From positions 1 through 64,000 of the forward strand of contig NZ_CP102412.1 in assembly GCF_024628725.1 (NCBI RefSeq): 64,000 nucleotides of DNA, read 5' to 3'. The DNA is from Ruegeria sp. YS9 (GTDB lineage: Bacteria; Pseudomonadota; Alphaproteobacteria; Rhodobacterales; Rhodobacteraceae). Position 1 is the stretch's first letter. Each line of letters opens with the position of its first letter. The position numbers and the translations under genes were made by a program. Of this stretch, positions 4,562-55,294 are shown in pieces. Under the pieces are notes generated by a model. The model saw only the letters and a list, made by a program, of their open reading frames with translations, was not told where the DNA came from and searched no databases.

Positions 4562-4625
4562 ACTGCCCTGCCCATATGTCCTGCCCGAATCTTTGTTCGT
4601 GGTTTTATTGACGCTCACCGTAGAG

Positions 4626-4634
4626 TTATCCACA
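4626..4634 (+). promoter_or_regulatory. DnaA box, exact consensus TTATCCACA
   Basis: A perfect 9-mer DnaA-binding site (TTATNCACA). It lies 20 bp from the iteron array and 65 bp upstream of the chosen repA start. This supports the origin and argues against the longer repA reading. Confidence 0.75.
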
Positions 4635-4653
4635 GGATGCGTAAAGCCGCCGG

Positions 4654-4719
4654 AACGTGGGTTCAGAGTCACTGCAACGTGGGATCAGAGTCACCCTATC
4701 GTGGGATCAGATTCAGTAT
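4654..4719 (+). repeat. Three tandem 22-bp iterons of the plasmid origin
   Basis: Three head-to-tail units start at 4654, 4676 and 4698. Each has the core CGTGGGWTCAGAKTCA; unit 1 differs from unit 2 at one core base (GTTC for GATC), unit 3 at a few. The 22-bp period equals about two helix turns, so a bound initiator would sit on one face of the DNA. Their place next to repA and a DnaA box is the usual setting for RepA-binding iterons. Confidence 0.8.
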
Positions 4720-4947
4720 GATCTGCAAGAAATACAAAAACCCCTTTTTTTTCTTACACTTAAGAGAATTCAAATTGACCCGTAACTAATAAGATAACAG
4801 GATTCTAACGGAACATTTTTTTGCTGTACGCTCAAAAGCAGCGTCTCGAAGGGTTTCTACCCCTTAATTTTGCTTAGAAAATCCGGTTTTGTGCTCATAA
4901 TGCTTTCACATGCGTCCTTTTGTGGTATATTGGTGAAAACATAGCAC
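4720..4947. other. AT-rich part of the replication origin and parA leader
   Basis: This gene-free stretch is clearly AT-richer than its surroundings, with runs such as CCCCTTTTTTTTCTT near 4742 and ACTAATAAGATAAC near 4787. It is a good candidate for the DNA-unwinding element next to the iterons. It also has to hold the repA and parA promoters. Confidence 0.5.
4904..4931 (+). promoter_or_regulatory. Possible parA promoter
   Basis: TTTCAC (4904-4909) and TATATT (4926-4931) are separated by 16 bp and lie just ahead of parA ATG 4948. If used, the leader would be only about 10 nt, or about 25 nt if translation begins at the in-frame ATG 4963. Confidence 0.35.
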
Positions 4948-6375
4948 ATGGGCAGTATTTCAATGCGAGCAGCAACCTCCGAGGGGCTTCCCCCGTATTT
5001 CAATATCGATCCGGATCTGGCCTATGCTGAACTGGGTGATCCAACCGGAACACATGAGTTCTCACAGATCGCGGATGCCTGTGCACGGGGTCGTAGCGAC
5101 CTGGCAAACCGGGGGCTGGAAGAAAACGGTCAGAAAAAGCTGCGCCTGTTTTCAACCTGGGAAATCACCAAATATCTGATCCCTGTGGCACCAGCCCATT
5201 TTCGCCGGGTCCTGAAAGGCAATCCGGATTTGCCCCAGGGACAGTCCGAAACCGAGGGCGGCGCGAAGTGGTTCACGCTGGATGAGGTTCTGCGGCTACG
5301 GGCGCATTTCGCCTCGGAAGGATCCAAGGCAAAAGAATACCGTCCCTACCGACCCGAGGGTCTGCCCGCCAAGATCGTCTCGGTAGCGAATTTCAAGGGT
5401 GGCGTCGGCAAAACCTCGACCTGCGCCCATCTGGCCATGTCGGCGGCTCTGGACGGCTACAAGGTTCTGGTCATCGACCTGGACAGCCAGGGTTCGATGA
5501 CATCGATCTTCGGCGGCAAGGTGAGCGATGAATGGCAGACGGTGTTCCCCTTGCTCGCCCGTCATTACGCCACCCATCTGCGCCGCGACAATCAGGGGCG
5601 TCTTGACCGGGGAGAGGCCCCGCATCCGATCGACGACACCCTGTCCGAGGCGCTGAAGACCCGCAGCAGCGATCTGATCCAAACCACCCACTGGCCGAAT
5701 ATCGATCTGATCGGAGCTCAGCTGAACCTCTACTGGGCGGAATTCCAGATTCCCGTCTGGCGGATGCAGGGCCGCAGCTGGAAGCTGTGGGATGCACTGA
5801 CCGATACGCTGGACGAAGATGGGGTGCTGGACGATTACGATATCATTTTCATCGATACCCCCCCTGCCCTTGGCTATCTGACGATCAACGGGCTGGCCGC
5901 ATCGGATATCCTTCTGGTGCCCATGGGGGCCTCGTTCCTGGAGTTCGACTCCACGGGGCGGTTCTTTGACATGCTGCATTCCACCTTCCAGTCCATCGAG
6001 GATGGCGAGAACATGGCCGCGCGCGCCCTGGGGCGACCCGAGATGGCGTTTCAGTGGGATGCGGTGCGCACGATCATTACCCGCTATGACGGCAGCCAGC
6101 AGGCGGAACTGGCCGGGCTGATGCAGGCCTATCTGGGCCGGACCCTGTCGCCGCACTGGCAGGGCTACACGGCGCTGATCGGTCAGGCCGGGGAACAGGT
6201 CAACGGTATCTACGAGGCCGATTACCGAGATTTCAACCGCGAAACCTATGTGCGCGGGCGGGAAACTTTTGATGCCACCTATGCCTCGTTCAAGAAGCTG
6301 CTGATCGGCGTCTGGCGGGGCGAAGAACGGGCCCGGCAGGCCGAAGAGGCGGGAACACCGGAATTGTCGCTCTGA
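4948..6375 (+). CDS. parA: Plasmid partition ATPase ParA with N-terminal DNA-binding region
   Basis: A 475-residue ParA. The first 135 residues carry an MerR/HTH-like region (TWEITKYL ... WFTLDEVLRLRAHF), as in type Ia ParA proteins that repress their own operon. The deviant Walker A KGGVGKTS is at 150-157, Walker A' LVIDLDSQGS follows, and Walker B IIFIDTPPALG comes later. ParA forms ATP-dependent gradients on the nucleoid that move ParB-parS complexes to daughter cells. It is read divergently from repA across the origin and is followed by parB after 77 bp holding the first parS palindrome. An internal ATG at 4963 is an alternative start. Confidence 0.93.
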   Translation: MGSISMRAATSEGLPPYFNIDPDLAYAELGDPTGTHEFSQIADACARGRSDLANRGLEENGQKKLRLFSTWEITKYLIPVAPAHFRRVLKGNPDLPQGQSETEGGAKWFTLDEVLRLRAHFASEGSKAKEYRPYRPEGLPAKIVSVANFKGGVGKTSTCAHLAMSAALDGYKVLVIDLDSQGSMTSIFGGKVSDEWQTVFPLLARHYATHLRRDNQGRLDRGEAPHPIDDTLSEALKTRSSDLIQTTHWPNIDLIGAQLNLYWAEFQIPVWRMQGRSWKLWDALTDTLDEDGVLDDYDIIFIDTPPALGYLTINGLAASDILLVPMGASFLEFDSTGRFFDMLHSTFQSIEDGENMAARALGRPEMAFQWDAVRTIITRYDGSQQAELAGLMQAYLGRTLSPHWQGYTALIGQAGEQVNGIYEADYRDFNRETYVRGRETFDATYASFKKLLIGVWRGEERARQAEEAGTPELSL

Positions 6376-6452: not shown

Positions 6453-7469
6453 ATGGCAAAACGCAAACGACTGACCCCTGCCCGGCCGGATTATCTGGAA
6501 GACAACCGCCCTGCCCCTGGGCTGAACCCCATGTTTCCCGCAGATACACCCCGCGCCGCGCCGCCGGTCGCGCAGGTGGCCGGGGCCACGGCGGCTCAGG
6601 CGGCGCTGGAAGAGCTGTCCGGAGAATTGCGTGCCGCGCGGGCCGAAGGGCGCTTGGTGCAGGATCTGCCGTTGGACGTCATCGAAGAAACCTATCTGGT
6701 GCGTGACCGCATGGCGGCAGATGACGCGGACATGGAGGCGCTGAGGGAAAGCCTGAAGACCCGCGGCCAGCAGACCCCGATCGAGGTCGTGGAACTGGAC
6801 GGCGGGCGTTACGGGTTGATCTCGGGCTGGCGGCGCCTGACAGCGCTGCGGGCGCTGGCGCAGGAGACGGGTGAGGCCCGCTTTGAAACCGTACGCGCGT
6901 TCCTCAGACAGCCACAGAGTGCTTCGGATGCTTACGTAGCCATGGTCGAGGAAAACGAGATCCGCGTCGGGCTGAGCTATTACGAGCGTGCCCGGATTGT
7001 GGCGCGCGCGGCAGAGCAGGGCGTTTACCCGGATGAGGCGGCCGCTCTGCGTGGGCTTTTCGCGTCGGCCAGCCGGGCGAAGAGATCTAAGATCGGCTCG
7101 TTCATCGCGATCTATCACGCCCTGGATGACCATTTGCAGTTCCCTTCGGCGATTCCTGAACGGTTGGGGCTGTCGATTGCGAAAGTTCTGAAGGAGGAGG
7201 CAAAAGCCGCTTCCTTGATCACCACCGCTCTGCGGAAGGCCGCACCTCAGAGCGGGGAAGCCGAGATTTCCGCTCTGACCCGTGCAGTGAGCGGCCTGGG
7301 GTCGAATGGGAAAAACCCACCTGCTGCCAAGACCCCCCTGAAAGAGACATTCGGCGGCATTCAGTTGAAACAGAGTCGAAATGGTGCACAGGTCACCTTG
7401 TCCGGCGAGGGAATGTCCGAGACATTTCTTGCGGAGTTGAAAGCCTGGTTGCACGCGCGCGGTACATGA
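6453..7469 (+). CDS. parB: Plasmid partition protein ParB
   Basis: A 338-residue ParB/Spo0J family protein with an AAGGAG ribosome binding site 8 nt before ATG. After a variable N terminus come the ParB N-terminal domain (VRDRMAADDADMEALRESLKTRGQQ is its start), the GxRRL-type motif GWRRLTAL, ENEIRVGLSYYERA (the conserved EN..R box), and a helix-turn-helix region that would read parS. The C terminus is expected to dimerise. It binds and spreads from the parS-like palindromes on both sides of its own gene and stimulates ParA ATPase. The second palindrome starts at the base right after its stop codon. Confidence 0.92.
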   Translation: MAKRKRLTPARPDYLEDNRPAPGLNPMFPADTPRAAPPVAQVAGATAAQAALEELSGELRAARAEGRLVQDLPLDVIEETYLVRDRMAADDADMEALRESLKTRGQQTPIEVVELDGGRYGLISGWRRLTALRALAQETGEARFETVRAFLRQPQSASDAYVAMVEENEIRVGLSYYERARIVARAAEQGVYPDEAAALRGLFASASRAKRSKIGSFIAIYHALDDHLQFPSAIPERLGLSIAKVLKEEAKAASLITTALRKAAPQSGEAEISALTRAVSGLGSNGKNPPAAKTPLKETFGGIQLKQSRNGAQVTLSGEGMSETFLAELKAWLHARGT

Positions 7470-42008: not shown

Positions 42009-43628
42009 CTAAAACGGTACAAACCGCGGCAGGCGGTTCAGGCTTGGCTCCATGAAGCGTTGCAACCTTGCATCCGCATCCGCTTCGGTTTCGCCGGGCA
42101 GGATGGGGGTCACAAACCGGACCAGAGCGCCATCGGTGCGCCCCATGGTAAAGCCGTCTTGAATGACGCTCATCTTGGCGCGGAAATCATTGACCATACG
42201 CTTGCCGCGCTGTTCGAACCAGTAATAGACCAGCTGTTTCGATAGCTCTTTCTGGATCACGGCGCGGTTGACTGAAAAGCTGCCATAAGGCGTGTTGCCG
42301 GGGTTGATCTCATAAGGTTCAAGGCTGAAGATTTCCCAGCCACCCACCGGCAGGCAGACCTCGGGAGAATGGATACCGTCACCTTCGGTCTGCTTGTCGT
42401 AGAAGGCCACGAACATGTTCACGAAGTCGCCCGAACCGGTGTCGATATAGGTAGCATGAAGGTAATCGCTGGCACCCAGAACCTGTTCAACCTGTGGGTC
42501 CAACGTGGTGGGCGACCCGGACCAGGGGCCAAGCTGCCGTGGATACAGTACAAACGGGTCACGTTCCACAGGCCGTGCTTCGGAAGCGGGCCGCAGGGTC
42601 CAGGCGGTTGAAACCGCAAGCGTCAGAAGACCCGCGACCGCCAGTGCCACCGATGCGCGAATGCCAAAGATACGCAAGGCAACAGAACCCAGCCTCTGGG
42701 TATCCAGATCAATGGTCTCGGCAAAGGGTTGCGGATTCGGCGCCAGACGCTGCAAGCCGAGTGCCATCAGGAACAGAATGGCGACGCAGAGCAGGAAGAT
42801 GATCCAGCCTTCGAAGAAATGCATGAAGCCTTCAGCCTGCTCGATACCGTGCTGGTTGACCAGCACGCCGATCACACCGATGCGGATCGAGTTCATCAGC
42901 ACGGTCAGAGGGGCCGCCGAAACCAGCAAAACCACCTTGTGCCAGATCGGGCCACGGTAAAGCAGGGCAAAGAGATACGAGAAGCTCAGGATCGGGAACA
43001 GATAGCGCAGCCCGGAACAGGCCTCGGCCACCTGAAGTTTGTAGACCCCCAGATCGATGATGTTGCCTTCGATGAAAACCGAAACACCGGCCATCTGCAC
43101 GAACCAGACGCCCAGCTCGGACGAAATCCATTGCAGGAAGATCGTGAGCTTCCAATAGACGAACTGCGGCAGCGGCAGCATGAACACCAGATGCAGCACG
43201 GGCAGCTGGTGGTATTTGCCCCGCTGCCAGCCGAACACGGTCAGCATGACGCCGCCCACCCAGATGATCATGGCATAGGTGACGATATCGGGAATACGGG
43301 CCAGGTTGCCCAGAATGGCGATGATCAGGGCCACGGCAATCACCGCCACCCCCGGCCAGCGATCATGCACAACCGGATTGGGGGGTGGCATATCCCGCAA
43401 TTCACGCAGGAACAGATACAGCGAGATGATCGGGATCAGCGGGCCATGGCTGTATTCGGGGGTGCTCCAGGCGGCGCCCAGAGACACGATCCCGATCCAG
43501 AAGACGGGCACCGATCCAAGCAGCAGCAGGACAAACCAGAACAGCCCGACGGTGTTCATGACCGGCAAGCCTCTTCTGGCCGCATCAAGGATATTACTGC
43601 GGCTGTTTTTCGAATCGAGGTGATGCAT
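42009..43628 (-). CDS. xrtD: Exosortase fused to an EpsI domain, XrtD (VPLPA-CTERM-specific) type
   Basis: A 539-residue fusion (ATG 43628; GTG 43631 adds one residue). Residues 25-290 are an exosortase: [17 protein letters not shown], then the active site with Cys204 in [15 protein letters not shown], Arg249 in [12 protein letters not shown], and His270 in GFMHFFEGW, within about eight membrane helices. Residues 310-539 are an EpsI-like domain ([30 protein letters not shown]). Exosortases cut C-terminal sorting tails of secreted proteins at the inner membrane. The type call rests on the fusion layout and on the VPLPA-CTERM protein at 54127. It heads no operon of its own but follows the barrel, Wza, PrsT and EpsC genes on the same strand, after a 132-bp gap. 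Confidence 0.88.
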
Positions 43629-43760
43629 CACGGTCCATCATGCACAATAAGGTGTGGTCTGAAATTATGACGGCCCAAGCTCCCGCTATTTTGATCCGTT
43701 TTCGGGACATTGAGCGCGGGCTGTCCTGATTGTCGATATCATGAACCGGATGAATGAACG

Positions 43761-45338
43761 TCAGGGTTTGAGAGAAAAGCGCCGGCCCAACGTCAGAAAG
43801 ACCGAGTTTGAAGTTGCCGTAAAGCCGTTCTGATCGTCCATTTCATATTGGTACCCCACGTTTACAGCCCAGTCTTTCGTGACCGCCCGTGTATAGGACG
43901 CGCTGAACGTACCGCGCTGGCGCGGGTTGGGTTGACCGGTTCCCTCGTCTTCCTGGTCGATGTAATCGACGCTGAAAGACAGCCCCGATACCGGGTTGAT
44001 GAAATAGTCATATGTCAGAAACACCAGTGTTTCACGTGTTTCTATGCTCTGCGTACTGGTGCCGACCCGGCGTTGCACCGTTGCCCCGATCCGGGAACTG
44101 GCCAGCTGATAGCTGTAGTCAAGCTGCCCGATCGGTGTGACTTCGTCGAATGGTCCTCTGGTCAGGCCCACGTTGAAGCTGAATAGTCCGTTGGCGCGCT
44201 GAAAACTGCGGCCGGCCGTTGCGTTTATCCGCGACCCATTGACCCCGAATGTCTGGTCAATCTGAAAATCGGCCGATCCGTCTGGCAGGGTTTTGTTCCA
44301 TGCGAAATCCCAGACGAAATCCTCGGTTACGGTGTTGGTATTGGTTGTGCGCTGCGTGTCATCCACCTGACTGTAACCGATATTCGCACTGACGGTGGTG
44401 ACAGGGGATACGTCATAGGTCCCGCCAACTGTCACAACCGTCGTTTGCTCATCGGTTCGCACGTTGTCTTCTGCCGAGAAATCAGTGTAGTCGAGACGCA
44501 AGTTGGCCTGAAAAACCGGTGACACCCGCAATGTCGTGATCGCTGAGTAATAGCTTGACTTGTTGTCGAACAGGTTCGGATCGATTGTGTTTGTATAGGT
44601 GCGTTCGCCATAGCTGTAGATGAATTGGAACCCGATTGGGTCATTCAGGCCGGTTTGCCAATTCAGGTTGCCCAGGGAGTTGACCTGATCCCCGATGGTT
44701 CCGGTCACATCGGCGGCATCAATTCTGCCATCCAGATTGGTGTCGGTCAGTGAACGGTTAAAGGCCAGATCCTGTTCGCGGTAATCCAATAGCAGGTCAA
44801 GCTGGCTGTTCTGGCGCGACCGCTGATACGACAGGCGAGCAGACGGGTCCGCAAAGCTGGATGCCGTCCCGATAATCGGCTCATTGGCGATCCGGTACAG
44901 TCCGGAAAGGTCAAGAGCCAATCTCGAATCCGAGGTCTGCTTCAGAATTCCCAGGGCCAGCGTATTCTCCCACCAGGTCGTGGACCCAAGCGAAGGATCG
45001 GTCAGGCGAAGATTGCTGTCATGTCTGAGCGACGAGAGATAATCCAGGGTCACACTCAGGCCGGTCCCGGTCCCAATCTGCTGACCGGTCGGCAGGCCGA
45101 CCCTTCGGGCCGGATTTCGCTGTGCCTGTTGTGCGATCAGTTGCTGGCTGGGTGTCTGCTGCACAACCGTCGATGCGACGGTTGTCTGCTGCACGGATGT
45201 TTGCTGTGTCGAGGTTTGTGTTTGCTGCGCAGTCGTTTGCTGTGTCGAGGCCTGCTGCCCGACGGCTGGTGCAAACGAACTTATGACAGCGATCCCACCC
45301 CCCAGAATGGTGGACAGCCTGCTCCTGGATTTCCCCAC
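43761..45338 (-). CDS. Outer-membrane beta-barrel protein of the exosortase/EPS locus
   Basis: A 525-residue protein from GTG 45338. A Sec signal (GGGIAVISSFAPAVGQ) is followed by a low-complexity stretch of Gln/Thr with STQQT-like units (about 29-75). The rest is an alternating amphipathic beta-pattern in which every second residue is hydrophobic or aromatic, ending SVFLTLGRRFSLKP with a nearly terminal aromatic as needed for barrel insertion. PEP-CTERM/exosortase loci regularly carry an outer-membrane barrel of this size, here LSVTLDYLSSLRHDSNLRLTD at its start. It may be the outer-membrane conduit or receptor for the polymer. It follows the Wza-like gene by 12 bp, so is in the same operon. 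Confidence 0.78.
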   Translation of the reverse strand: MGKSRSRLSTILGGGIAVISSFAPAVGQQASTQQTTAQQTQTSTQQTSVQQTTVASTVVQQTPSQQLIAQQAQRNPARRVGLPTGQQIGTGTGLSVTLDYLSSLRHDSNLRLTDPSLGSTTWWENTLALGILKQTSDSRLALDLSGLYRIANEPIIGTASSFADPSARLSYQRSRQNSQLDLLLDYREQDLAFNRSLTDTNLDGRIDAADVTGTIGDQVNSLGNLNWQTGLNDPIGFQFIYSYGERTYTNTIDPNLFDNKSSYYSAITTLRVSPVFQANLRLDYTDFSAEDNVRTDEQTTVVTVGGTYDVSPVTTVSANIGYSQVDDTQRTTNTNTVTEDFVWDFAWNKTLPDGSADFQIDQTFGVNGSRINATAGRSFQRANGLFSFNVGLTRGPFDEVTPIGQLDYSYQLASSRIGATVQRRVGTSTQSIETRETLVFLTYDYFINPVSGLSFSVDYIDQEDEGTGQPNPRQRGTFSASYTRAVTKDWAVNVGYQYEMDDQNGFTATSNSVFLTLGRRFSLKP

Positions 45339-45350
45339 CTGTATCAGCCC

Positions 45351-45962
45351 CTATTCGAACAAGCGGCGTGCTGGTACGACAACCACGTCTCCGGGTCTAA
45401 GCACTGTATTGCCTTGGATGCCACCGCCCGAGCCTTTGTAGTTATAGGTATATTTTCTCATCACGCCTGTTTTACTGTCAGCCCGGCGCAATTCGATGCG
45501 CTTGCGAGCCGCGAAATTGGTCAGACCACCGGCCTGAGCCAAAACCTGAAGAATTGTCGTGCCTTCGGTTGCCAGATGCTTGCCGGGCACATTGACCTCA
45601 CCCATGATGAAAACATCGATGGTTGGTCCGGATGCGGCCTGTCCGCCCAGAAGCGGCGGCGGAGCCAGCGACGCCACTGAAATAAAGACTGTCGGCGGCG
45701 TATTGAAATTCGAGGCCAACGCCGATGAAAGCGACGCGCTCAATCCGCTGGTCGACTGGCCGGCCGCACGGATCGAGCCGGCAAGCGGAAAGTTGATGGA
45801 CCCGTCCGGCAGAACCAGGATGGTCCGATTCAGGGTGGGGTCTTCGAGAACTTCAACCTGCAGCGCATCACCCGGTTGGATTTGATAGGATTGCGCCCAT
45901 GATGCGGTGGCCACGATCATGGTAATGACAAGTGCGGTCAAGGACCCGATGACTGTACGCAT
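45351..45962 (-). CDS. Polysaccharide export protein (Wza-like)
   Basis: A 203-residue protein; ATG 45962 follows a GAGAGA site. The signal peptide (RTVIGSLTALVITMIVATASWA, cut near SWAQ) has no lipobox cysteine, unlike classic Wza lipoproteins. SYQIQPGDALQVEVLEDP opens the poly-export domain, LPDGSINFPLAGSIRAAG follows, and an SLBB domain starts at DVFIMGEVNVPGKHLATEG and contains LQVLAQAGGLTNFAARKRIELRR. Short single-SLBB proteins of this sort are the norm in exosortase-linked EPS loci, where a separate barrel may form the outer-membrane pore. It lies between PrsT and that barrel. Confidence 0.87.
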   Translation of the reverse strand: MRTVIGSLTALVITMIVATASWAQSYQIQPGDALQVEVLEDPTLNRTILVLPDGSINFPLAGSIRAAGQSTSGLSASLSSALASNFNTPPTVFISVASLAPPPLLGGQAASGPTIDVFIMGEVNVPGKHLATEGTTILQVLAQAGGLTNFAARKRIELRRADSKTGVMRKYTYNYKGSGGGIQGNTVLRPGDVVVVPARRLFE

Positions 45963-46076
45963 ATTCAAATCTCTCACTTTTTTCCTTTATGCCGCCCTAC
46001 AGGATACAAAACAATCTGCAGGGAGTCTGATACATACAAGATGCGGCAGAAATGCAGCGGCGTCATCAACTCTGTG

Positions 46077-48530
46077 TTAGTGGCTGTTGGTGGGTACAGC
46101 GTTCAGCTGTTCAATCTCAGCCTCCACCAATGACGCGACTTCCGTAGAAGCCCCGCTGAAAGCTCTGGCTTTATGAAAAAGACGCAGCGCATCTTCGTTC
46201 CGCTCCAAAGCCGCATATGCTTTTCCCAGATGATATAGTACCAGGGGATGTTCAGGGAACGCCGCTGCCGCAGGTTCAAGGTAGGTGACCGCCTCTTCAT
46301 AATTTCCCAACCGGTAGGCGACCCAGCCATATGTTTCCTGGAAGACCGGTTCCTGTGTGCCACGCAGACGTTGCGCCAAAACCTGCGCGCGCCGCAGACT
46401 CTCCTCATCGTTGCGATATGTTGTCAGCAGGCTTGCAAGATTATTGACTACAATCAGAGAGCGATTGGTGATCGGATATAGCTTTTCGTATGTTGCGATT
46501 GCCTGGTCCAGATCTCCGCTGCGTTCGTAATCCGTCGCCTGCAGCATGAGCAAAGCCGGATTTTCAGGCAGATTGGCCAATGCCTCAGTCAGAATTTCCC
46601 TGGCCTGATCGGGCGCGTTCCGTTCCGTTGCCAATCCGTGCAGCGCAATCCATGCCCGCGTCGTAGTCGGATAATCCTCAAGAATGACACGGTAGAGCTG
46701 CTCAGCCTCACCGCGGTCGCCTTCACTGATCAACGCATGGGCTTTGATCAGACGGATTGGCAAAGAATCCGGGTCTTCCGCAAGCAACTGGTCAAGATGG
46801 GCGAAGGCTTCGACCGTCTGCCCTTTTGTAAGCATCAGGCGAACAAGCGCGATATCGGCGGGCAGGCCAAATTCGGGATCATCCGCCAGCTCGTTCAGGA
46901 AAGAGGTCAGTTCCTGTGTGCGTTGCTGTGCGGCCAGCATATGCGCCCTGAGCTCATTCGCAGAGCGTCGTGTTCCCGGGCTGTCCAGATCCCTGATGGC
47001 ATCAAGGACGGTTTCCAGGCGGTCCCAATCCTGCATGCTCAGATATACTTCTCCCAATAGAAGCAGAAGCTCGGAATGTTCCGGAGCCTGGTGCAGGGCT
47101 TGGGCCAAAACACGTTCGGCGATCACCAAATCACCTTCCGCGATCAGAAATCGGGCATAGCGCAGCGTTTCGTCCGGTGCGTTCCCGGAAATTTCCGTCG
47201 CCAGCGCCAGCATCTCGCCCATCAGTTCCCTGTCTCCGTTGCGCTCATGCGCCTGGGCCATCAGGGTCATCAATTGCGGGTCGCGGGGTGCCTGACCGAG
47301 CGCTTCGCGCAAAAGCACAATCGCATCGCCGGTCTTGTCCTCGTCAATCAGCCAGGACGCCTTGAACTTGAGAGCGCTGACCTGGGCTGCATCCTCGGAC
47401 AGGACTTTTTCCACCAAAGCGCGGGCTTCATCGGGCTGGCCGACCTGGAACAGCATGAGGGCAAACTCTACCTCACTGGCGCGGGTCTGTATGTTTCTTT
47501 CCGCGCCTTCCAGCAGTGTCTGCATCTCGGCGATCGCGGCTAGTTCATCACCCGATCGGAATTTCAGCGCTGCACGCACCGTCTTGAATTGGAACGTGTT
47601 CGGGCCGTTCTGAGCGATGATCGTATCCAGCTCGGCAATTGCCGCTGCAGAGTCGCGGTTATCGTTCAGAAAGGCGATCAACCGCTGTGTCGGCATGTGA
47701 TCTTCAGCAAGCGGATCCACCTCGGCCCGCAGCATCTGTTCTGCCGCATCCAGATTCCCCTGATCGATATAATGTTCCACAAGCAACTGCTCGACGCCCT
47801 CATCGTCAGGGAATGTCACGGCCATCTGCCGAAGAAACGTCTCGATTTCTGCGGGCATATCCAGTTCCTGAAGTGCGCGGAGCCGGATTCCATAAAGGCT
47901 TTCTTCCATTGGATCGGTGGCTATGGCCACCTCTGTTTCCTGCAGAACACCGGGCCAGTCCTCATCGCGGATCAGATGGTCAATTATGATCTGGCGCGCA
48001 GTCATCAGTTCCGGGTGGCTTTTGATCATCTCGCGGGCCCTATGGACGGCGACGTCCACACCTGCAAAATCCCCATCCCTGACCGCGTCGGTATAAGCCA
48101 GCATGTTATTGATGGATTTGATTTCGATATCATCCGGAGCCAGAGCGCTTGCCAATGCGCCGTGACGCCTGACATCTTCCCAATTCCCCACCTCCAGAGC
48201 CATCTCAGCAAGGTTCCGATGGCCCTCAAGGTTGTCCGGATACTGTTCTATCAGCCGCAGATACTGACCATATGCAACCGAGATATTGCCGCGCTCGCGT
48301 TCCACCCTGGCAAAGGTCAGCCGTGCTTCTTTGTGCTGACCGTTGAGGTTGAAAACATTCCTGAACTCAACAAGTGCGCGCTCGACGTCACCGGCTTCCA
48401 GATGGGCCAGCCCTGCCTGGAAATGCGCTTCGGCCCGTTCCTCGGCCGAGTCGCACGCGCTCAGCAGGAGTGTCGCCGCAAAAAGGGCTGCGATCAGCCG
48501 TGCGCCAATAGGAGGTACGATCCAGCTCAT
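46077..48530 (-). CDS. prsT: PrsT-like TPR-repeat lipoprotein of the PEP-CTERM/exosortase system
   Basis: An 817-residue lipoprotein with GGAG ahead of ATG 48530; the longer frame from 48572 is discarded. Residues 1-26 are a signal with lipobox LLLSAC, so Cys27 or so is lipidated. The remainder is almost wholly tetratricopeptide repeats, about 20 helix pairs with A-x-x-x-Y/F-x-x-A-L spacing, for example HFQAGLAHLEAGDVERALVEF and LVLYHLGKAYAALERNEDAL. Long TPR lipoproteins with this architecture are a hallmark (PrsT) of exosortase EPS loci. They probably act as a periplasmic scaffold linking the polymerase, chain-length control and outer-membrane parts. It follows the priming transferase gene by 70 bp. 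Confidence 0.85.
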   Translation of the reverse strand: MSWIVPPIGARLIAALFAATLLLSACDSAEERAEAHFQAGLAHLEAGDVERALVEFRNVFNLNGQHKEARLTFARVERERGNISVAYGQYLRLIEQYPDNLEGHRNLAEMALEVGNWEDVRRHGALASALAPDDIEIKSINNMLAYTDAVRDGDFAGVDVAVHRAREMIKSHPELMTARQIIIDHLIRDEDWPGVLQETEVAIATDPMEESLYGIRLRALQELDMPAEIETFLRQMAVTFPDDEGVEQLLVEHYIDQGNLDAAEQMLRAEVDPLAEDHMPTQRLIAFLNDNRDSAAAIAELDTIIAQNGPNTFQFKTVRAALKFRSGDELAAIAEMQTLLEGAERNIQTRASEVEFALMLFQVGQPDEARALVEKVLSEDAAQVSALKFKASWLIDEDKTGDAIVLLREALGQAPRDPQLMTLMAQAHERNGDRELMGEMLALATEISGNAPDETLRYARFLIAEGDLVIAERVLAQALHQAPEHSELLLLLGEVYLSMQDWDRLETVLDAIRDLDSPGTRRSANELRAHMLAAQQRTQELTSFLNELADDPEFGLPADIALVRLMLTKGQTVEAFAHLDQLLAEDPDSLPIRLIKAHALISEGDRGEAEQLYRVILEDYPTTTRAWIALHGLATERNAPDQAREILTEALANLPENPALLMLQATDYERSGDLDQAIATYEKLYPITNRSLIVVNNLASLLTTYRNDEESLRRAQVLAQRLRGTQEPVFQETYGWVAYRLGNYEEAVTYLEPAAAAFPEHPLVLYHLGKAYAALERNEDALRLFHKARAFSGASTEVASLVEAEIEQLNAVPTNSH

Positions 48531-48600
48531 TGCTGTTCTCCTGCAAAACTTAAGGAAAAAGCATACAACCAATCAACCTGTTCGGCTGCATGGCCCGGTC

Positions 48601-49290
48601 TCAGCAACCCGTGCCGCGCAGGACAACGAAAATGGTCCGGAACACGATTGAAACATCTGTACTGAACGACATGCTTTTCCAATATTCGGTATCGTGAAAC
48701 GCACGCTCAGCAAATGTGGACTGATTGCGTTTCGAAACCTGCCAGGGTCCCGAAAGGCCGGGGCGCATGGCGGTATAGAATTTTCCAGGATAAAGCTCTT
48801 TCTGGCAAACCATCATCGGGCGGGGGCCAACCACGGACATTTCGCCAACGAAAACATTCCAGAATTGCGGCAACTCATCCATCGAGGATTTGCGCAGGAA
48901 AGTTCCGAATTTGATGATACGCGGGTCATTGCGCAGCTTCTGATCGCGGTCCCATTCTTCCTGGGCTTCGGGGTTCTTCGCCAGATGCTCCTGCAGCACG
49001 GTTTCAGCATCATGGACCATGGTGCGCAATTTAAGCATCTTGAAGGCTTTGCCATTCTTGCCGACACGTTCCTGCCGATAAAACGGGGTCACGCCCTGGC
49101 ATGCAAGAAACGCGGCCAGCAACAGCACCACCGGCACGACAAAAGGCGCTGCAAGCACTGCGAACGCTATGTCAAAAAGACGCTTGCCCCCACTTCTGTA
49201 TATCCCTGGATATGACACTGCGGCAGGCACAACAGAAATGCCGGAGTAGCCCGCGCCAGCGTTGGCCACTTCTTTCGAATGACTTGTCAC
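48601..49290 (-). CDS. Undecaprenyl-phosphate sugar phosphotransferase (priming transferase, ExoY/EpsC type)
   Basis: A 229-residue bacterial sugar transferase from GTG 49290 with GGGGG upstream. It has only the catalytic part: one membrane anchor in KRLFDIAFAVLAAPFVVPVVLLLAA, then FYRQERVGKNGKAFKMLKLRTM, SSMDELPQFWNVFVGEMSVVGPRPM (the DE..Q..NV..G.MS.VGPRP signature) and the acceptor-binding MRPGLSGPWQVSKRN. It lacks the four N-terminal helices of WcaJ-like enzymes. It transfers the first sugar-1-phosphate to undecaprenyl phosphate, starting each repeat unit. It begins the leftward operon EpsC-PrsT-Wza-barrel-XrtD. Confidence 0.92.
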   Translation of the reverse strand: MTSHSKEVANAGAGYSGISVVPAAVSYPGIYRSGGKRLFDIAFAVLAAPFVVPVVLLLAAFLACQGVTPFYRQERVGKNGKAFKMLKLRTMVHDAETVLQEHLAKNPEAQEEWDRDQKLRNDPRIIKFGTFLRKSSMDELPQFWNVFVGEMSVVGPRPMMVCQKELYPGKFYTAMRPGLSGPWQVSKRNQSTFAERAFHDTEYWKSMSFSTDVSIVFRTIFVVLRGTGC

Positions 49291-49945
49291 TATTTAAACC
49301 CCCAACACACACAATTACTCACGAACCACTCACCAAACTTACGAACCGAACACGCTCGACCTCAACCACGTATATTTAAAATCTTATATTTTTATACCAC
49401 TTCGACCCTGCACTTACTCACTTGCGAGGCCGCTTTCCCGTATCCAACTGTTAACAAATTCCACCTGCCTTGCAAAACATTAATGCTGGCAAACGTGTTC
49501 TCTGGTCGCTGAATACAGGTGCTTTTTAACAGTATCGTAAAGCTGCGACCAGCTGATCGGCCGCAAATTCATGAACTTTCGTTTCCCCATGGGACACAAT
49601 GAGCAATAATTTCACCCTTTAGGTTTGATTCCCGCCCGTAGAATCTCTTTTAATGTGTGATCACACCAGGTTCTGGTCGCCTCTTTCTCGGTCAACCCAA
49701 TAAGGGCGCAACGGAAACAATCGCGCCGATCACCTCATATTGAGAAAGCGGAAAGGTCAATTCACCGCGTGTGCAGTTTAGTGGTGCCTGCTATCTTGAT
49801 TTTGTGACAAACTAGTACCCAAGTACTTTTTGTTTATGTGATGTGTTCTTTGTGTAAGGGATTTCTGGTGGTTCAGAGTATGAGTTTGGATAATCTCCGG
49901 GGGGCCAGTACGAGGTTTGACAAGGCAGAAGGCAACCGAGGTGCA
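49291..49945. promoter_or_regulatory. Divergent control region between the two halves of the export/exosortase locus
   Basis: This about 650-bp AT-rich gap lies between the priming transferase (left) and the ATPase operon (right). It contains GTGTGATCACAC (49655-49666), a perfect 12-bp palindrome resembling a compact CRP/FNR-family half-site pair, and AGTAC-CCAA-GTACT (49814-49827). Either could bind a regulator of both operons. No gene other than a possible N-terminal extension of the ATPase is seen. Confidence 0.5.
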
Positions 49946-50803
49946 ATGGCGTCCAGCGACGGGTTTTATCTAGATTATTTCAGGCTTGACCGACGGCCCT
50001 TCACGCTGCTTCCGGATCCCGGATTCATGTACTGGTCGCCGCTGCACAAGCGCGGTTACTCGGTCCTGCAATTCGGCATCATGAGCTGTGCGCCCATCAC
50101 CGTGCTGACCGGGGAAATCGGGGCCGGAAAAACCACCCTGGTACAGCATCTTCTCAGCGAGATGGAGCAGTCGATCACCGTAGGGCTGATCTCGAATGCC
50201 CAAGGCGGCCGAGGAGAGCTGCTGCAATGGGTCCTGCATGCTTTAGGCCTGCCAATCGACAACGACGCCCCCTATGTACAGCTGTTCCGGGAATTACAGG
50301 ATTTCCTGGTCGCGGAATATGCAGAAGGGCGGCGTGTAGTTCTGATCTTTGACGAAGCGCAGAACCTGACCGTCGAAGGGTTGGAAGAAATCCGGATGCT
50401 GACCAATATCAACTCGAACACGGATGAGCTGATCCAGCTTGTTCTGGTTGGTCAGCCTGAATTGCGCGATATGGTTCTTGATCCCAAGATGCGCCAGCTG
50501 ACACAGCGCGTGGCCGCAAGTTTTCATCTTGAACGGATGGATGAGTCTTCGGTCGAAGCCTATATCAGACATAGGATGAAAACGGCTGGCGGTTCAGGCG
50601 ATGAGTTCACCGAAGAGGCCTGCAAGCAAATTTTCAAGCAAACGCGCGGTGTTCCGCGACTTGTGAATCAGTTCTGCGACTTTGCCCTGCTTTATGCCTG
50701 GACGAATGAGGCCGAGAAGGTGGATGAAGAGGTTGTGGAGCAGGTGGTCAAAGATGGCGTGTTCTTTGGCGGAAACTCACTCGAGAAGGAGCTGACAGTC
50801 TGA
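49946..50803 (+). CDS. ExeA-like AAA ATPase of the exosortase/EPS locus
   Basis: A 285-residue protein from ATG 49946 (GAGGTG just upstream); GTG 49838 and ATG 49880 give longer readings, but family homology starts at GFYLDYFRLDRRPFTLLPDP. Walker A is VLTGEIGAGKTTLVQHLL, Walker B is RRVVLIFDEAQNLT, and LIQLVLVGQPELRDMV (sensor region) follows with GVPRLVNQFCDFALLYAW. This is the general-secretion-ATPase-like family present in nearly all PEP-CTERM/exosortase EPS loci. It likely powers or controls export or polymer assembly from the cytoplasm. Its stop lies one base before the start of the chain-length gene, so the two are coupled. Confidence 0.85.
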   Translation: MASSDGFYLDYFRLDRRPFTLLPDPGFMYWSPLHKRGYSVLQFGIMSCAPITVLTGEIGAGKTTLVQHLLSEMEQSITVGLISNAQGGRGELLQWVLHALGLPIDNDAPYVQLFRELQDFLVAEYAEGRRVVLIFDEAQNLTVEGLEEIRMLTNINSNTDELIQLVLVGQPELRDMVLDPKMRQLTQRVAASFHLERMDESSVEAYIRHRMKTAGGSGDEFTEEACKQIFKQTRGVPRLVNQFCDFALLYAWTNEAEKVDEEVVEQVVKDGVFFGGNSLEKELTV

Positions 50804-50804
50804 T

Positions 50805-52343
50805 ATGGGCCCGGTTCGCTATTACTTTTCCATTTTCCTGAGACGGTTTCCGTATTTCCTGATCGTCGCCCTGATCGTGTCTGTAGCGTCATTCATTGTC
50901 GCCAGATCACTGCCTGCCACATATGTCTCGACGATGCGCCTGATTGTTGAATCGCCTCAGATTCCGGGCAATCTGGCGGCCAGTACCGTCACGACACCCG
51001 CGGCGGAACAGCTTCAGATCATCGAGCAGCGCCTGCTGACCCGTCCGATCCTTCTGGAAATTGCGCGCGAGTTTCAGGTTCTACCCGACCAAGATGAAGC
51101 AAGCCCCGATCAGGTTGTCAAAGCCATGCGCAAGAACACCTCGATCTGGATTTCCAGCGGTCTCAATCAGGCCAATCTGATGACAATCAGTTTCGAGGCG
51201 CGAACCGGTCCGATCGCAGCCGGTGTGTTGAACGCGTATTTGACGGAAATCCAGAAGCTGGACGTCTCTTATCGCAAGGAGCGCGCGACCGACACGCTGG
51301 CCTTTTTCCAACTGGAAGTTGATCGCCTGAGCAACGAGTTGAGCAGGCGCAGCGCCCGCATTCTCGAGTTCAAGAATGATAATTCCGATGCGCTCCCCGA
51401 CAGTCTGCAGTTCAGGCTGGCGCAGCAAGGGGCATTGCAGACCAATCTTGAACAGACGGATCAGCAGATTTTTTCCCTTAAGTCACAGCGGGAAAATCTC
51501 ATGAATATCTTCAGTTCGACAGGGCAGGTTGTCGGGCCTCCGCAACAAAACCAGACCCCGGCACAACAGCAGTTAAGTCAGCTGCAGTCACAGCTCGACA
51601 ATCAGCTTGTGGTCTATTCCGAGAACAGCCCGCAGATCAAACTGCTGCGCGCCAGGATTGAAAAACTTGAGAAAGTTGTAGCTGCCGAACAAGCAAACGC
51701 CCCGGCGCCATCTAACCAGACGGGAAATTCATCCCTTGACCTGCAACTGGCGCAGATCGACTCGCAGATTGCAGCGCTCGAAGATCAGCGCCGGGTGCTT
51801 CAGGACAGGCTCGACGCGCTGACCCTGACGATTGACCAGACCCCGGCCAACGCCATTACGCTTGCAGAACTGCAGCGCGAACACGACAATATTCAGAACC
51901 AGTACAACGTCGCGATCAGTCGCCTGGCCGATGCTTCAACCGGGGAACGGATCGAAGTCACGTCCCAGGGGCAACGTATTTCCGTCATCGAGCATCCCTC
52001 TACGCCAAGCGAGCCGGCCAAGCCAAACCGCTTGATGATCGCCGGCGGGGGCGCTGCCTTTGGCATCGCACTGGGGCTGGGGCTTGTGGTCCTGCTGGAG
52101 ATCCTGAATCGGTCCGTGCGTCGGCCCGAAGACCTGATCAGCAAGCTTGATGTCTGGCCAATCGCCACTATTCCCTATGCTCCGTCCCGCGGTGAAGTGT
52201 TGATGCAGCGCGCGGTATGGGGTGGGATCATACTGGCCATTCTAATCGGAGTGCCGGCCGGGGTCTGGGCGGTGCATACCTATTACCTGCCTCTCGATCT
52301 TATTACCGAGAGAGTGATGGATAAACTGGAGACATACTGGTGA
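50805..52343 (+). CDS. Polysaccharide chain-length determinant (Wzz/exosortase-type)
   Basis: A 512-residue membrane protein with N-terminal helix FPYFLIVALIVSVASFIVA (about 15-33), a large periplasmic coiled-coil domain (residues about 40-400, with Gln-rich segments such as QQQLSQLQSQLDNQL), and a C-terminal hydrophobic helix region around MIAGGGAAFGIALGLGLVVLLEI (Wzz-like, with a Pro-rich start EPAKPNRL). A further helix follows near the end (LWGGIILAILIGVPAGVW in pattern). The long form is that of the exosortase-associated chain-length determinants, not of short O-antigen Wzz. It controls polymer length and works with the neighbouring kinase-like ATPase. Confidence 0.87.
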   Translation: MGPVRYYFSIFLRRFPYFLIVALIVSVASFIVARSLPATYVSTMRLIVESPQIPGNLAASTVTTPAAEQLQIIEQRLLTRPILLEIAREFQVLPDQDEASPDQVVKAMRKNTSIWISSGLNQANLMTISFEARTGPIAAGVLNAYLTEIQKLDVSYRKERATDTLAFFQLEVDRLSNELSRRSARILEFKNDNSDALPDSLQFRLAQQGALQTNLEQTDQQIFSLKSQRENLMNIFSSTGQVVGPPQQNQTPAQQQLSQLQSQLDNQLVVYSENSPQIKLLRARIEKLEKVVAAEQANAPAPSNQTGNSSLDLQLAQIDSQIAALEDQRRVLQDRLDALTLTIDQTPANAITLAELQREHDNIQNQYNVAISRLADASTGERIEVTSQGQRISVIEHPSTPSEPAKPNRLMIAGGGAAFGIALGLGLVVLLEILNRSVRRPEDLISKLDVWPIATIPYAPSRGEVLMQRAVWGGIILAILIGVPAGVWAVHTYYLPLDLITERVMDKLETYW

Positions 52344-52374
52344 GTATTGTTTCGATTGAATTGGTGAATGTGTG

Positions 52375-53202
52375 ATGGACCGTCTTCAGAAAGCGATTCA
52401 AAAGGCGCGCGAGGAACGGCAGAGCCGCGAAAGCCCGCCGCCGGTCATGGAACAACCGCCCCGTCATGCCCCGTCAGAAGACGCTCGTGACACCCGGTGG
52501 CAAAGCGTGCCCGAGATACAGATCGACCCCAAACTTGCAGTGCGCAACCGGCTTGCATCGCTTGCTGGCGGCGGAGACGCCACCCCCTATGACATGTTGC
52601 GGACCAAGATGCTGCAACAGATCTTGTCCAACAAATGGCGCAGGGTGGCATTGACCTCCCCGTACAGCGGGTGCGGCAAAAGCACGACGACGGCCAACCT
52701 GGCCTTCAGCCTGGGGCGGCAGGAAGATCTGCGGACGATCGTGATCGATTTCGACATGCGGCGCAGGGGGCTGGCCGAGATTCTGAAGCAAACCGGCAAC
52801 CACAGCATGGCCGACGTCATTCAGGGATTGGTGCCGTTTCACGAACATGCGCTGCGGTATGGCAAGAACGTGATTTTCGGGCTGAATTACACGCCCACGC
52901 GCAACCCGGCGGAAATCTTGCAAAGCCGACGGGCGATCGAATTTCTCGAACAGCTCGAGGCGGATTACAAACCCGACGTCATTCTGTTCGACACGCCCCC
53001 CCTGATGATGAGCGATGACAGCCACGGCTTTCTCAGGAATGTCGATTGTGCCCTGCTTCTGGCTGCGGCCGAAGAAACCAGCATCGACCATATCGACGTT
53101 TCCGAACAGCAACTGGCGGAACTGACCAGCGTCATGGGGATCGTGCTGAACAAATGCCGATACATCAGCGGGACGTTTGGCAATGAGTACGGATCCTACT
53201 GA
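52375..53202 (+). CDS. Tyrosine-protein-kinase-like ATPase (BY-kinase/CpsD-type)
   Basis: A 275-residue P-loop protein starting at ATG 52375 (GTG 52372 is adjacent). The Walker A is SGCGKSTTT (98-106), the A' motif TIVIDFDMRRRG (122-133), and Walker B PDVILFDTPPLMM. This is the cytoplasmic ATPase/kinase partner of Wzz proteins, which autophosphorylates on a Tyr-rich tail; here the end CRYISGTFGNEYGSY has three tyrosines. It follows the chain-length gene by 31 bp. It overlaps the following GT2 gene by 20 bp, giving one transcription unit. Its activity should gate polymerisation and export. Confidence 0.87.
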   Translation: MDRLQKAIQKAREERQSRESPPPVMEQPPRHAPSEDARDTRWQSVPEIQIDPKLAVRNRLASLAGGGDATPYDMLRTKMLQQILSNKWRRVALTSPYSGCGKSTTTANLAFSLGRQEDLRTIVIDFDMRRRGLAEILKQTGNHSMADVIQGLVPFHEHALRYGKNVIFGLNYTPTRNPAEILQSRRAIEFLEQLEADYKPDVILFDTPPLMMSDDSHGFLRNVDCALLLAAAEETSIDHIDVSEQQLAELTSVMGIVLNKCRYISGTFGNEYGSY

Positions 53203-54067
53203 TACGGCTCCGGCCGATGCGGTGATCATTCCCCATTACAACGATTTGCCCCGGCTGGAACGATGTCTTCTTGCCCTGAGAGAGAACGATCTGACGGCGA
53301 CCGAAATCGTTGTCGTTGACAATAACTCTCCGGTGTCGCTGGACACGATGCGCCAGGCCTTTCCCGAGGTGCGTTTCGTGGTGGAAACCCAAAAGGGCGC
53401 GGCCCATGCCCGCAATCGCGGAGTTGCAGAAACCAGAGCGCCCCGACTGTTTTTCATTGACGCCGATTGCGTACCCGCGCCGGACTGGTTGAGCGTCGGG
53501 CGTCAGGTCGCGGATCAGGCCGATCTGATTGGTGGCCGGGTAGATGTCTTTGACGAAACCCCGCCCCCGCGCAGCGGCGCAGAAGCGTTCGAGGCCGTTT
53601 TTGCATTCAACTTCCGCAGGTATATCGAGGTTCAGGGGTTTTCCGGCGCCGGCAACCTGCTGACCCGGCGCGATGTGTTCGATGCGATCGGCGGGTTCAT
53701 CAACGGTGTCTCGGAAGATCGGGAATGGACCATGCGCGCGGTCGCGCACGGGTATAGCCTGATCTACCGGGACGACTTTCGTGTCAGTCATCCGTCCCGG
53801 CAGAATTGGCCCGCGCTCAAGGCCAAGTGGCGGCGCACGACCCAAGAGGCATATCTGCTGCATGGCACCAACGCCGCCGCGCGCATGCGGTGGGCGATCC
53901 GTGGATTGGCCATGCCGGCCAGTGCAATTGTGCACACCCCGAAAATCCTCAGCAGCAACAAGCTGTCCTCGGCGGGCGAAACCAGCCGGGCGATCATCAC
54001 GCTGTTCCGGCTCAGATGTCAGCGGATGATCTGGATGTTGCGCCAGGCAGCAGGTGGCGGCATCTGA
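53183..54067 (+). CDS. Glycosyltransferase family 2
   Basis: A 294-residue GT2 from ATG 53183, inside the end of the kinase gene (20-bp overlap). AVIIPHYNDLPRLERCL opens the GT-A fold, EIVVVDNNSPVSLDTMR follows, and the metal-binding FIDADCVPAPDWL is a clear DxD. Later, SGAGNLLTRRDVFDAIGGFINGVSEDREWTMRA holds the catalytic-base ED-x-x-W-type motif. No membrane helix is visible at the C terminus. It adds a sugar in the cytoplasm during repeat-unit assembly. As the last gene of the ATPase-Wzz-kinase operon it is followed by a terminator shared with the VPLPA-CTERM gene. Confidence 0.87.
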   Translation: MSTDPTDTAPADAVIIPHYNDLPRLERCLLALRENDLTATEIVVVDNNSPVSLDTMRQAFPEVRFVVETQKGAAHARNRGVAETRAPRLFFIDADCVPAPDWLSVGRQVADQADLIGGRVDVFDETPPPRSGAEAFEAVFAFNFRRYIEVQGFSGAGNLLTRRDVFDAIGGFINGVSEDREWTMRAVAHGYSLIYRDDFRVSHPSRQNWPALKAKWRRTTQEAYLLHGTNAAARMRWAIRGLAMPASAIVHTPKILSSNKLSSAGETSRAIITLFRLRCQRMIWMLRQAAGGGI

Positions 54068-54076
54068 TCAAAAGAA

Positions 54077-54099
54077 AAGGGACCGCGAAACGGCCCCTT
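54077..54099. terminator. Bidirectional hairpin terminator between the GT2 and VPLPA-CTERM genes
   Basis: AAGGGACCG (54077-54085) pairs with CGGCCCCTT (54091-54099), one A-C mismatch, loop CGAAA, followed by GTTCTGTTTG. A-rich before and T-rich after, so it can serve both convergent genes (54067 and 54127). Confidence 0.65.
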
Positions 54100-54126
54100 G
54101 TTCTGTTTGTCAGGTTTGTGTGTCGC

Positions 54127-54663
54127 TCAGGCGGCCCTGCGGCGACGCGTCAGAGCCAAACCACCAAGCGCGGTCAGAAGCAGCAGACCACCGGCGGGCA
54201 GCGGAACTGCAGCCACGTCAAAGTCAAAGCTGATCGGACCACCATTTGTCGTTGCTTGCGAATTGGCCCAGCTGAACACAAGATTCTGGCTCAGGGAGTT
54301 CGGGCTTACGCTGCTGAACAATGTGCTGAGCGTGGTCTGTATGCCGCCCAGAATCGCCGTACTCGCCAGAACGTTGCTGGGGTTTGCTGCGTCGACCCAG
54401 CTCATGGTCAGACCTGTGAACGCACCCAGTACCCGAATGGTAACCGACGCATTCGCTGACCCAATGAGCGGATCAATCGGCGATGTAAAGTTGACCGAAT
54501 ACGAGCCAGGTCCACCGAGTGTGGAAACAGATCCGATAAAGGCCGTATCAGATTTAATGTCATAGCTGCCGCCTGCCGTCACCGAGGTCAGCGCACTGGC
54601 CGATCCGGCCATCATCACAGCAGCAACAATCCCTGCCGCCATCATTTTCAAACTTTTAAACAT
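54127..54663 (-). CDS. Small secreted protein with VPLPA-CTERM sorting tail (probable XrtD substrate)
   Basis: A 178-residue protein from ATG 54663, with AAGGTGG upstream. A Sec signal covers residues 1-24 (MMAAGIVAAVMMAGSASA). The middle (about 25-152) is Ser/Thr/Gly-rich, with no cysteine and no enzyme motif. The end has VPLPAGG from residue 153, a hydrophobic helix LLLLTALGGLAL, and the basic cap TRRRRAA. This three-part tail is the VPLPA-CTERM sorting signal, paired with exosortase XrtD in the family definitions. The XrtD gene is 10 kb away in the same locus. It is probably processed at the membrane and presented at the surface or in the matrix. It is the only such tail in the window. Confidence 0.9.
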   Translation of the reverse strand: MFKSLKMMAAGIVAAVMMAGSASALTSVTAGGSYDIKSDTAFIGSVSTLGGPGSYSVNFTSPIDPLIGSANASVTIRVLGAFTGLTMSWVDAANPSNVLASTAILGGIQTTLSTLFSSVSPNSLSQNLVFSWANSQATTNGGPISFDFDVAAVPLPAGGLLLLTALGGLALTRRRRAA

Positions 54664-55294
54664 ACAAAGTCCCACCTTTGATTTTTATAACACAACCCGC
54701 TCGAAATCCCGGCAGGGCACCTACTGCAATTATTAATAATTCATTTCTATTTGATTGCGAAGGATTTTCCTCGGAATTGTGGCTTTTTTTTGTTGCAAGG
54801 GCCCATTGCTCAGCACAATGGATACTTGAGTTACAGTTTGTTTCCCTATCGTGAACCAGAATCACCCGAATAAGGCGAATCTGCGTCTGGAGAACATGCC
54901 GACTTTCCGGCGATTCCAAGCGTTTTCACATTGCACCAAGCATAATCCGAACCGGTTCAGGCAATGCAGAACCATGCCCGATCACTCTGTCATGAAATGC
55001 AGCCGGCACGTCTTTTCACATGACGGGCGCTCCCGTTCCACACAAGGCAAGAAACAATACAAACCATTTCAGCGCACTGTCTACTTTCTGCCCGGCACAA
55101 GGGCCCTGCGGATCGCAACAGAAGGGAAAAAGGCCACAAACCCGGGTTCCGCCATATTTATTCTTCGACGGTCCGAAAGTTTCGTGTAGCTTTGGATTGT
55201 TATTGTACCAAGTTCAGGCACGCATTTTCAATCGGAAGCCATTGTTTAGCCGTTTGTCCATTGTGCCTGCCTATTTAGCGAGGAGACATTGCGC
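54664..55294. promoter_or_regulatory. Divergent promoter region, VPLPA-CTERM gene versus methyltransferase
   Basis: A 631-bp gap without a convincing gene. The first 150 bp next to the VPLPA-CTERM start are AT-rich and probably hold its promoter; a weak inverted repeat CCATTG...CAATGG lies near 54805. Short open frames in 54850-55290 have no protein-like character. Confidence 0.4.

Follow-up and report, generated by a model that had tools for sequence, protein, structure and literature searches.

A plasmid-borne XrtD exosortase and the VPLPA-CTERM proteins of plasmid and chromosome in Ruegeria sp. YS9

The XrtD block and its plasmid

The 64,000-nucleotide stretch of DNA analysed here (the window) comes from Ruegeria sp. 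YS9 (NCBI RefSeq assembly GCF_024628725.1, contig NZ_CP102412.1, positions 1 to 64,000) and forms the first 64 kb of C4, an 84,102-bp contig of the host genome (G000). A block of ten genes at 42009-54675 combines the exosortase XrtD with a protein bearing a VPLPA-CTERM tail (the companion) and with genes related to exopolysaccharide (EPS) export; all ten lie at the positions given by an earlier, first-pass annotation of this DNA (Table 1). Exosortases of the XrtD type pair with the VPLPA-CTERM signal: the enzyme cleaves at the VPLPA tail and hands the protein to an acceptor. We asked which proteins of this host the plasmid enzyme may serve.

The assignment of the exosortase to the XrtD type was borne out by a TIGR04152 score of 681.8 bits (cut-off 400), with residues 52-539 aligned to model positions 2-486 of 486; the runner-up model, XrtW, gave 248.8 bits (its cut-off being 425). 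Residues Cys205, Arg250 and His271, which we take to be catalytic, were invariant in 16/16 aligned XrtDs. They are numbered from the GTG start and are the same residues as the Cys204, Arg249 and His270 of the first-pass annotation, whose numbers fit a count from the ATG after the GTG. A search by sequence for a solved relative of XrtD gave none at E 0.1. The proposed check for other XrtD genes in the host was run as genome-wide searches with PF09721 and TIGR04178, which returned a single exosortase, the XrtD of the window; neither a second exosortase nor a chromosomal XrtD was found.

The pairing of this enzyme with a VPLPA-CTERM protein in the block likewise held, the companion scoring 34.1 bits as a protein against TIGR03370 (cut-off 25.35) and showing a signal peptide, the VPLPA motif, a hydrophobic stretch and a basic end. 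It contains no Pfam domain and has 139 homologues in the protein collection; comparison with solved structures gave two weak immunoglobulin-type matches (E 0.016 and 0.039), to which we gave no weight. VPLPA proteins on XrtD contigs were also sought in 15 other genomes of the genus, and 11 were extracted by pattern. Seven of these were of the companion kind (63-81% identical), and the four from G400, G401, G424 and G434 were of a different kind.

A TIGR03370 search of the whole host genome found three VPLPA-CTERM proteins, of which one is the companion on C4 (37.9 bits) and two are encoded on the 3.24-Mb chromosome, C1: S1 at C1:2,343,576 (38.6 bits) and S2 at C1:2,149,955 (22.5 bits). Three more matches at E 0.2-0.7 were left out of this count. 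S2 stays below the cut-off, yet the signal peptide, VPLPA motif, hydrophobic stretch and basic end are all present in it, and in G427, G428 and G443 the orthologous matches reach 27.5 bits, above the cut-off. PF07589 added no substrate above threshold; the tails of S1 and S2 were what it matched best. The first-pass annotation had reasoned that the plasmid would control surface display if the chromosome encoded further VPLPA-CTERM proteins; with two of the three substrates chromosomal, one of them below the cut-off, such proteins do exist. The S2 body looks like an allele replacement, judged from its divergence: 136-141 of its 176 codons are unlike those of the orthologues, while the flanking DNA keeps 85-92% identity and the tail is similar (L202, G000:C1:2145001-2155000).

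The location of the module on a plasmid, claimed by the same annotation, was confirmed. The reading frame of an epimerase-like protein continues across the join of the two ends of C4, so the contig closes on itself, and it carries an RPA-type initiator together with parA and parB, as expected of an RPA-type (RepA) plasmid. On account of the frame across the join and of the initiator, we rejected C4 as a chromosome fragment. The frame at 3932-4789(+) was considered as a replication gene and dismissed, as it matches no family and the RPA gene lies on the opposite strand. The remaining contigs of the host genome measure 3.24 Mb (the chromosome), 748 kb, 131 kb, 52 kb and 38 kb.

Table 1. Genes of the EPS block and of the replication module, in window coordinates
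Feature	Position	Strand	Evidence and remarks
Plasmid replication initiator (RPA type)	3554..4672	(-)	PF10134 339.5 bits
parA partition ATPase	4948..6375	(+)	AAA_31 107.3 bits; TIGR03453 198.2 bits, below cut-off
parB partition protein	6453..7469	(+)	TIGR03454 69.7 bits, below cut-off
xrtD, exosortase (EpsH domain) with fused C-terminal EpsI domain (DUF3485), 540 amino acids	42009..43631	(-)	TIGR04152, PF09721, PF11984
525-amino-acid protein with hydrophobic N-terminal start	43761..45338	(-)	outer-membrane barrel suspected from block position only
Wza-like polysaccharide export protein	45351..45977	(-)	PF02563 70.4 bits; TIGR03027 94.6 bits, cut-off 180 not reached
PrsT-like tetratricopeptide repeat protein	46077..48572	(-)	TIGR02917 180.8 bits, cut-off 312.2 not reached
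Priming sugar transferase	48601..49290	(-)	PF02397 192.1 bits
Exosortase-system-associated ATPase	49838..50803	(+)	TIGR03015 267.7 bits, cut-off 324.5 not reached
Wzz-like chain length determinant	50805..52343	(+)	TIGR03007 192.3 bits, cut-off 278.85 not reached
Kinase-like ATPase (tyrosine autokinase type)	52372..53202	(+)	TIGR03018 80.5 bits, cut-off 230.65 not reached
Family 2 glycosyltransferase	53177..54067	(+)	PF00535 79.5 bits
Companion VPLPA-CTERM protein	54127..54675	(-)	signal peptide (by eye); VPLPA-CTERM tail at 54136-54207; TIGR03370

The partner genes of the block were recognisable, and to that extent the "complete EPS export set" of the first-pass annotation stood. Its family names did not: the PrsT-like protein, the export protein, the ATPase, the Wzz-like protein and the kinase-like ATPase all score below the cut-offs of the NCBIfam models concerned. 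They are thus fairly described as relatives, rather than members, of the XrtA/PEP-CTERM-type EPS export set. The 525-amino-acid protein matches no Pfam or NCBIfam family at E 0.001, which leaves its earlier label of barrel unconfirmed, and it is 70-75% identical in G431, G432 and G043. A scan for promoters and terminators gave 6 promoter-like sites (6.6 expected) and 18 terminator-like sites (14.9 expected). Elsewhere in the window, a frame of 632 amino acids at 10371-12269 matches neither Pfam nor NCBIfam at E 0.001, and two right-handed beta-helix proteins are encoded on opposite strands at 24098-26164 and 26646-27917.

XrtD and VPLPA-CTERM genes in related genomes

We determined the distribution of both components in 54 genomes of the genus, scoring XrtD by TIGR04152 over its cut-off and VPLPA-CTERM proteins by TIGR03370. 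XrtD was found in 18 of the 54 and VPLPA matches in 20. All 18 XrtD genomes had a VPLPA match, as against two of the 36 genomes lacking XrtD, namely G427 and G428 (Fisher p 2e-12, uncorrected for kinship). Ten of the 54 genomes encode a second exosortase type (L144-L153; frames of 476-523 amino acids, 62-85 bits to PF09721), and no VPLPA match was detected in the seven that have this type without XrtD. XrtD contigs in the genus range from 40 to 358 kb. Of the 18 XrtD genomes, 17 have a VPLPA gene on this contig and 12 have at least one on another contig, bearing in mind that contigs of a draft assembly may share a replicon. G432, assembled in four contigs, shows the same split as the host: XrtD shares a 77-kb contig with one VPLPA gene, and a second VPLPA gene lies on the 3.64-Mb contig.

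At the level of the family we examined 394 genomes. Here VPLPA scoring covered up to 21 candidates a genome, so that the VPLPA counts are lower bounds. XrtD was over its cut-off in 92 genomes and VPLPA was present in at least 128; both were found in 87, XrtD only in 5, VPLPA only in 41 and neither in 261 (Fisher p 1e-48, again uncorrected for kinship). VPLPA matches thus occurred in 87/92 XrtD genomes vs 41/302 without XrtD. Nine of the 41 VPLPA-only genomes have another PF09721 exosortase. The other 32 contained no TIGR04178 match over the cut-off, the sole trace being a 16-bit match in G244. They include G256, whose XrtD is truncated by a contig end, so that 31 are left with no exosortase detected.

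In a plasmid collection, 43 records matched XrtD, 24 of them with at least 80% query coverage; these 24 come from 14 genera, and 23 are annotated as xrtD. One record labelled as a Bacillus velezensis plasmid (NZ_CP061940.1; H25) gave an XrtD match of 54.8% in three pieces, and we suspect mislabelling or contamination. That XrtD is always plasmid-borne was rejected, since several genomes have it on the chromosome: the contigs concerned measure 2.97 to 4.37 Mb (G035, G101, G104, G275, G300 and G351) and 2.26 Mb (G094). In a tree of the 56 XrtD sequences with fetched loci (G417 and G300 left out), the 17 rows of the genus were scattered and polyphyletic, requiring 6 changes, at least 5 of them forced by well supported branches. 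Transfer of XrtD between genera is therefore likely.

Plasmid contigs of G431, G432 and G043, which represent three other species of the genus, have a replication module in common with C4 (87-89% nucleotide identity), and each of the ten genes of the block is found on them as well. The block (window 42009-54703) is 73-76% identical between the plasmids, whereas some backbone segments reach 88-92% and others are lower. Block and backbone may for this reason have separate histories, through exchange of the block or through its faster change. A plasmid of G435 is less alike: 9/10 block proteins match, at 27-57% and in a different order, and the companion is missing. The shared plasmids in three species and the polyphyletic XrtD lend indirect support to the first-pass suggestion that the module moves between strains. 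On the other hand, no relaxase or type IV secretion family was detected among the 50 C4 proteins scanned with Pfam, which are part of the C4 frames, and of the 43 plasmid records that match an exosortase, 38 are classed as non-mobilizable.

Probable substrate range of the plasmid enzyme

We read the block as a plasmid-borne XrtD/VPLPA-CTERM sorting system, placed within an EPS export module, that most likely serves chromosomal substrates in addition to its companion; we give this a probability of roughly 0.65. Since the single exosortase detected lies on the plasmid, and since XrtD and VPLPA proteins co-occur in the genus, the chromosomal proteins most likely receive their enzyme from the plasmid. 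Judging from its sequence, the VPLPA protein would be exported via Sec by its signal peptide and would be halted by the hydrophobic stretch and the Arg/Lys end at its C terminus. XrtD, acting through Cys205, Arg250 and His271, would then cut at the VPLPA tail and transfer the protein to what is probably a lipid or glycan acceptor, and the sorted protein might finish on, or in association with, the polymer that the adjacent genes export. If the plasmid were lost, the chromosomal substrates would stay unprocessed, and G427 and G428 seem to be natural cases of that state.

These two genomes, G427 (3.66 Mb plus 743 kb) and G428 (five contigs), have neither XrtD nor any PF09721 match. Their S1 and S2 regions are colinear with those of the host at 92-94% nucleotide identity, and the VPLPA tails are intact. 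The look for plasmid genes on the 743-kb contig of G427 covered its first 20 kb. In G428, an XrtD-less copy of the plasmid was sought on contigs C3, C4 and C5, the 811-kb contig lying outside the scope, and was rejected: at E 1e-4 these contigs match 0/10 block proteins and no RPA protein. The parA and parB of the window match there at only 27-38% identity, and the integrase-like gene at 92%.

Several observations weigh against service to chromosomal substrates by the plasmid enzyme. Between G427 and G428, the S1 and S2 tails (55 codons together) show 14 synonymous changes and 1 non-synonymous one, a ratio of non-synonymous to synonymous substitution rates (dN/dS) of 0.022, compared with 0.12 for the bodies of the same proteins; at most one non-synonymous change among 15 would have a probability of 2.5e-7 without selection. 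In the motif-plus-membrane part, 14 synonymous and 0 non-synonymous changed codons were counted in 44, and in the signal peptides of the same proteins, which are also hydrophobic, 8 and 3 in 42, these being few changes. By these codon counts, the S1 and S2 tails are under strong purifying selection in two genomes with no detected exosortase. Because tails and signals persist in such genomes, the tail may have a role independent of XrtD or may be processed by a different enzyme; the conservation fits equally a plasmid that was lost recently or is kept in other strains. Nor are chromosomal substrates universal, as in 6 of the 18 XrtD genomes of the genus all VPLPA genes found sit on the XrtD contig. 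In the family, the five XrtD-only genomes carry the enzyme with no VPLPA match, and two of them, G254 and G300, still had none with all candidates scored. Conversely, 31/394 genomes have 1 to 20 VPLPA matches and no PF09721 or above-cut-off TIGR04178 match; they include G013, G055, G106, G128, G134, G240, G332 and G269, the last a single 3.6-Mb contig with 5 VPLPA matches. In the 13 of these 31 whose best-scoring locus was fetched, the tails resemble those of XrtD genomes. Plasmids missing from assemblies, diverged exosortases or an unrecognised enzyme are possible explanations.

A tentative way to accommodate these genomes is that the family keeps VPLPA signals under selection without a resident exosortase, either with an enzyme held in common, which plasmids bring in and take away often enough for the tails to stay fixed, or with a second sortase acting on VPLPA tails. 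A narrower role for XrtD, in which it serves the block companion only and the chromosomal tails are plain membrane anchors or substrates of another enzyme, seems to us unlikely. The conserved tails of G427 and G428 would suit such a role, as would the 17/18 XrtD contigs with a VPLPA gene of their own and the six genomes with none elsewhere. It sits poorly, however, with the almost perfect tracking of XrtD by VPLPA genes in the genus, with the motif and layout common to chromosomal and plasmid tails, and with the proportion of non-synonymous changed codons in the motif-plus-membrane part (0/44) vs the signal peptides (3/42), small as these numbers are.

Less probable again is an unrecognised sorting enzyme in the exosortase-free VPLPA genomes that is also present in the host of the window, making XrtD one of two enzymes. 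The 34 of 36 XrtD-less genomes of the genus that lack any VPLPA match argue against it, and for single assemblies the loss of a plasmid, or its absence from the assembly, is the simpler account; the 31 exosortase-free family genomes, and the likeness of the tails in 13 of them to those of XrtD genomes, are what speaks in its favour. That the chromosomal VPLPA genes are relics being lost, so that the plasmid enzyme has no important chromosomal substrate, might be suggested by the finding of only two such genes in the host, one below the cut-off. We rejected this last explanation as highly improbable, since S1 and S2 are kept in synteny at high nucleotide identity in G427 and G428 and their tails appear to be under purifying selection.

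If the plasmid enzyme does serve the chromosomal proteins, gain or loss of the plasmid would alter the cell surface in one step, as XrtD would be the sole finishing enzyme for chromosomally encoded surface proteins. Set beside G427 and G428, two close relatives that lack the plasmid, the plasmid-bearing host offers a natural comparison by which this reading can be tested.

Comparison with known systems

A literature search by titles, abstracts and selected passages, with most subscription journals outside its reach, found no work on XrtD on plasmids, and in the same body of literature no paper treating an exosortase together with VPLPA-CTERM was found. A VPLPA-CTERM protein of a Methylophaga-type bacterium does appear in a study of a methanol-fed reactor, where it lies behind a riboswitch.

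A counterpart by gene content is pTB2 of Roseobacter denitrificans OCh 114 (NC_008387.1, 69 kb), which likewise has an RPA-type initiator, parA/parB, polysaccharide genes, an annotated xrtD and two VPLPA-CTERM proteins. Its XrtD is 48.9% identical to that of the window. A rhomboid protease gene lies among the EPS genes of pTB2, about 11 kb from xrtD (L250); a rhomboid subfamily is described in PMC3237569 as pairing with another C-terminal signal. In Aliiroseovarius sp. M344, xrtD is also near a VPLPA protein, but beside nitrite-reductase genes. The "biofilm plasmids" of Roseobacter (Michael et al. 2016, as cited in PMC9426580) resemble C4 in being extrachromosomal, in their role in surface attachment and in coming from the same bacterial group; their characteristic feature, according to the same citing text, is a rhamnose operon.

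A similar division between plasmid and chromosome was described by Haft et al. 2006 (PMC1569441) for the EpsH/PEP-CTERM set of Desulfovibrio vulgaris, and the same paper predicted orphan signals after plasmid loss. A small exception is also already in print there: Chlorobium tepidum, noted as an orphan species, has two PEP-CTERM proteins but lacks EpsH. The present case differs from the Desulfovibrio set in the bacterial group and in the exosortase. It differs, too, in that exosortase-free relatives assembled in few contigs keep the chromosomal substrates with conserved tails; such relatives do not figure in the Desulfovibrio passages of that paper.

Measured against the XrtD/VPLPA-CTERM system as defined by TIGR04152 and TIGR03370, the enzyme of the window is no different: it agrees in model score, in the Cys/Arg/His residues, in the VPLPA signals and in its EPS neighbourhood. 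What sets it apart is that the only enzyme detected lies on the plasmid and two of its candidate substrates on the chromosome. The split between plasmid and chromosome is thus known in kind, and C4 adds to it an XrtD/VPLPA case that comes with plasmid-free relatives.

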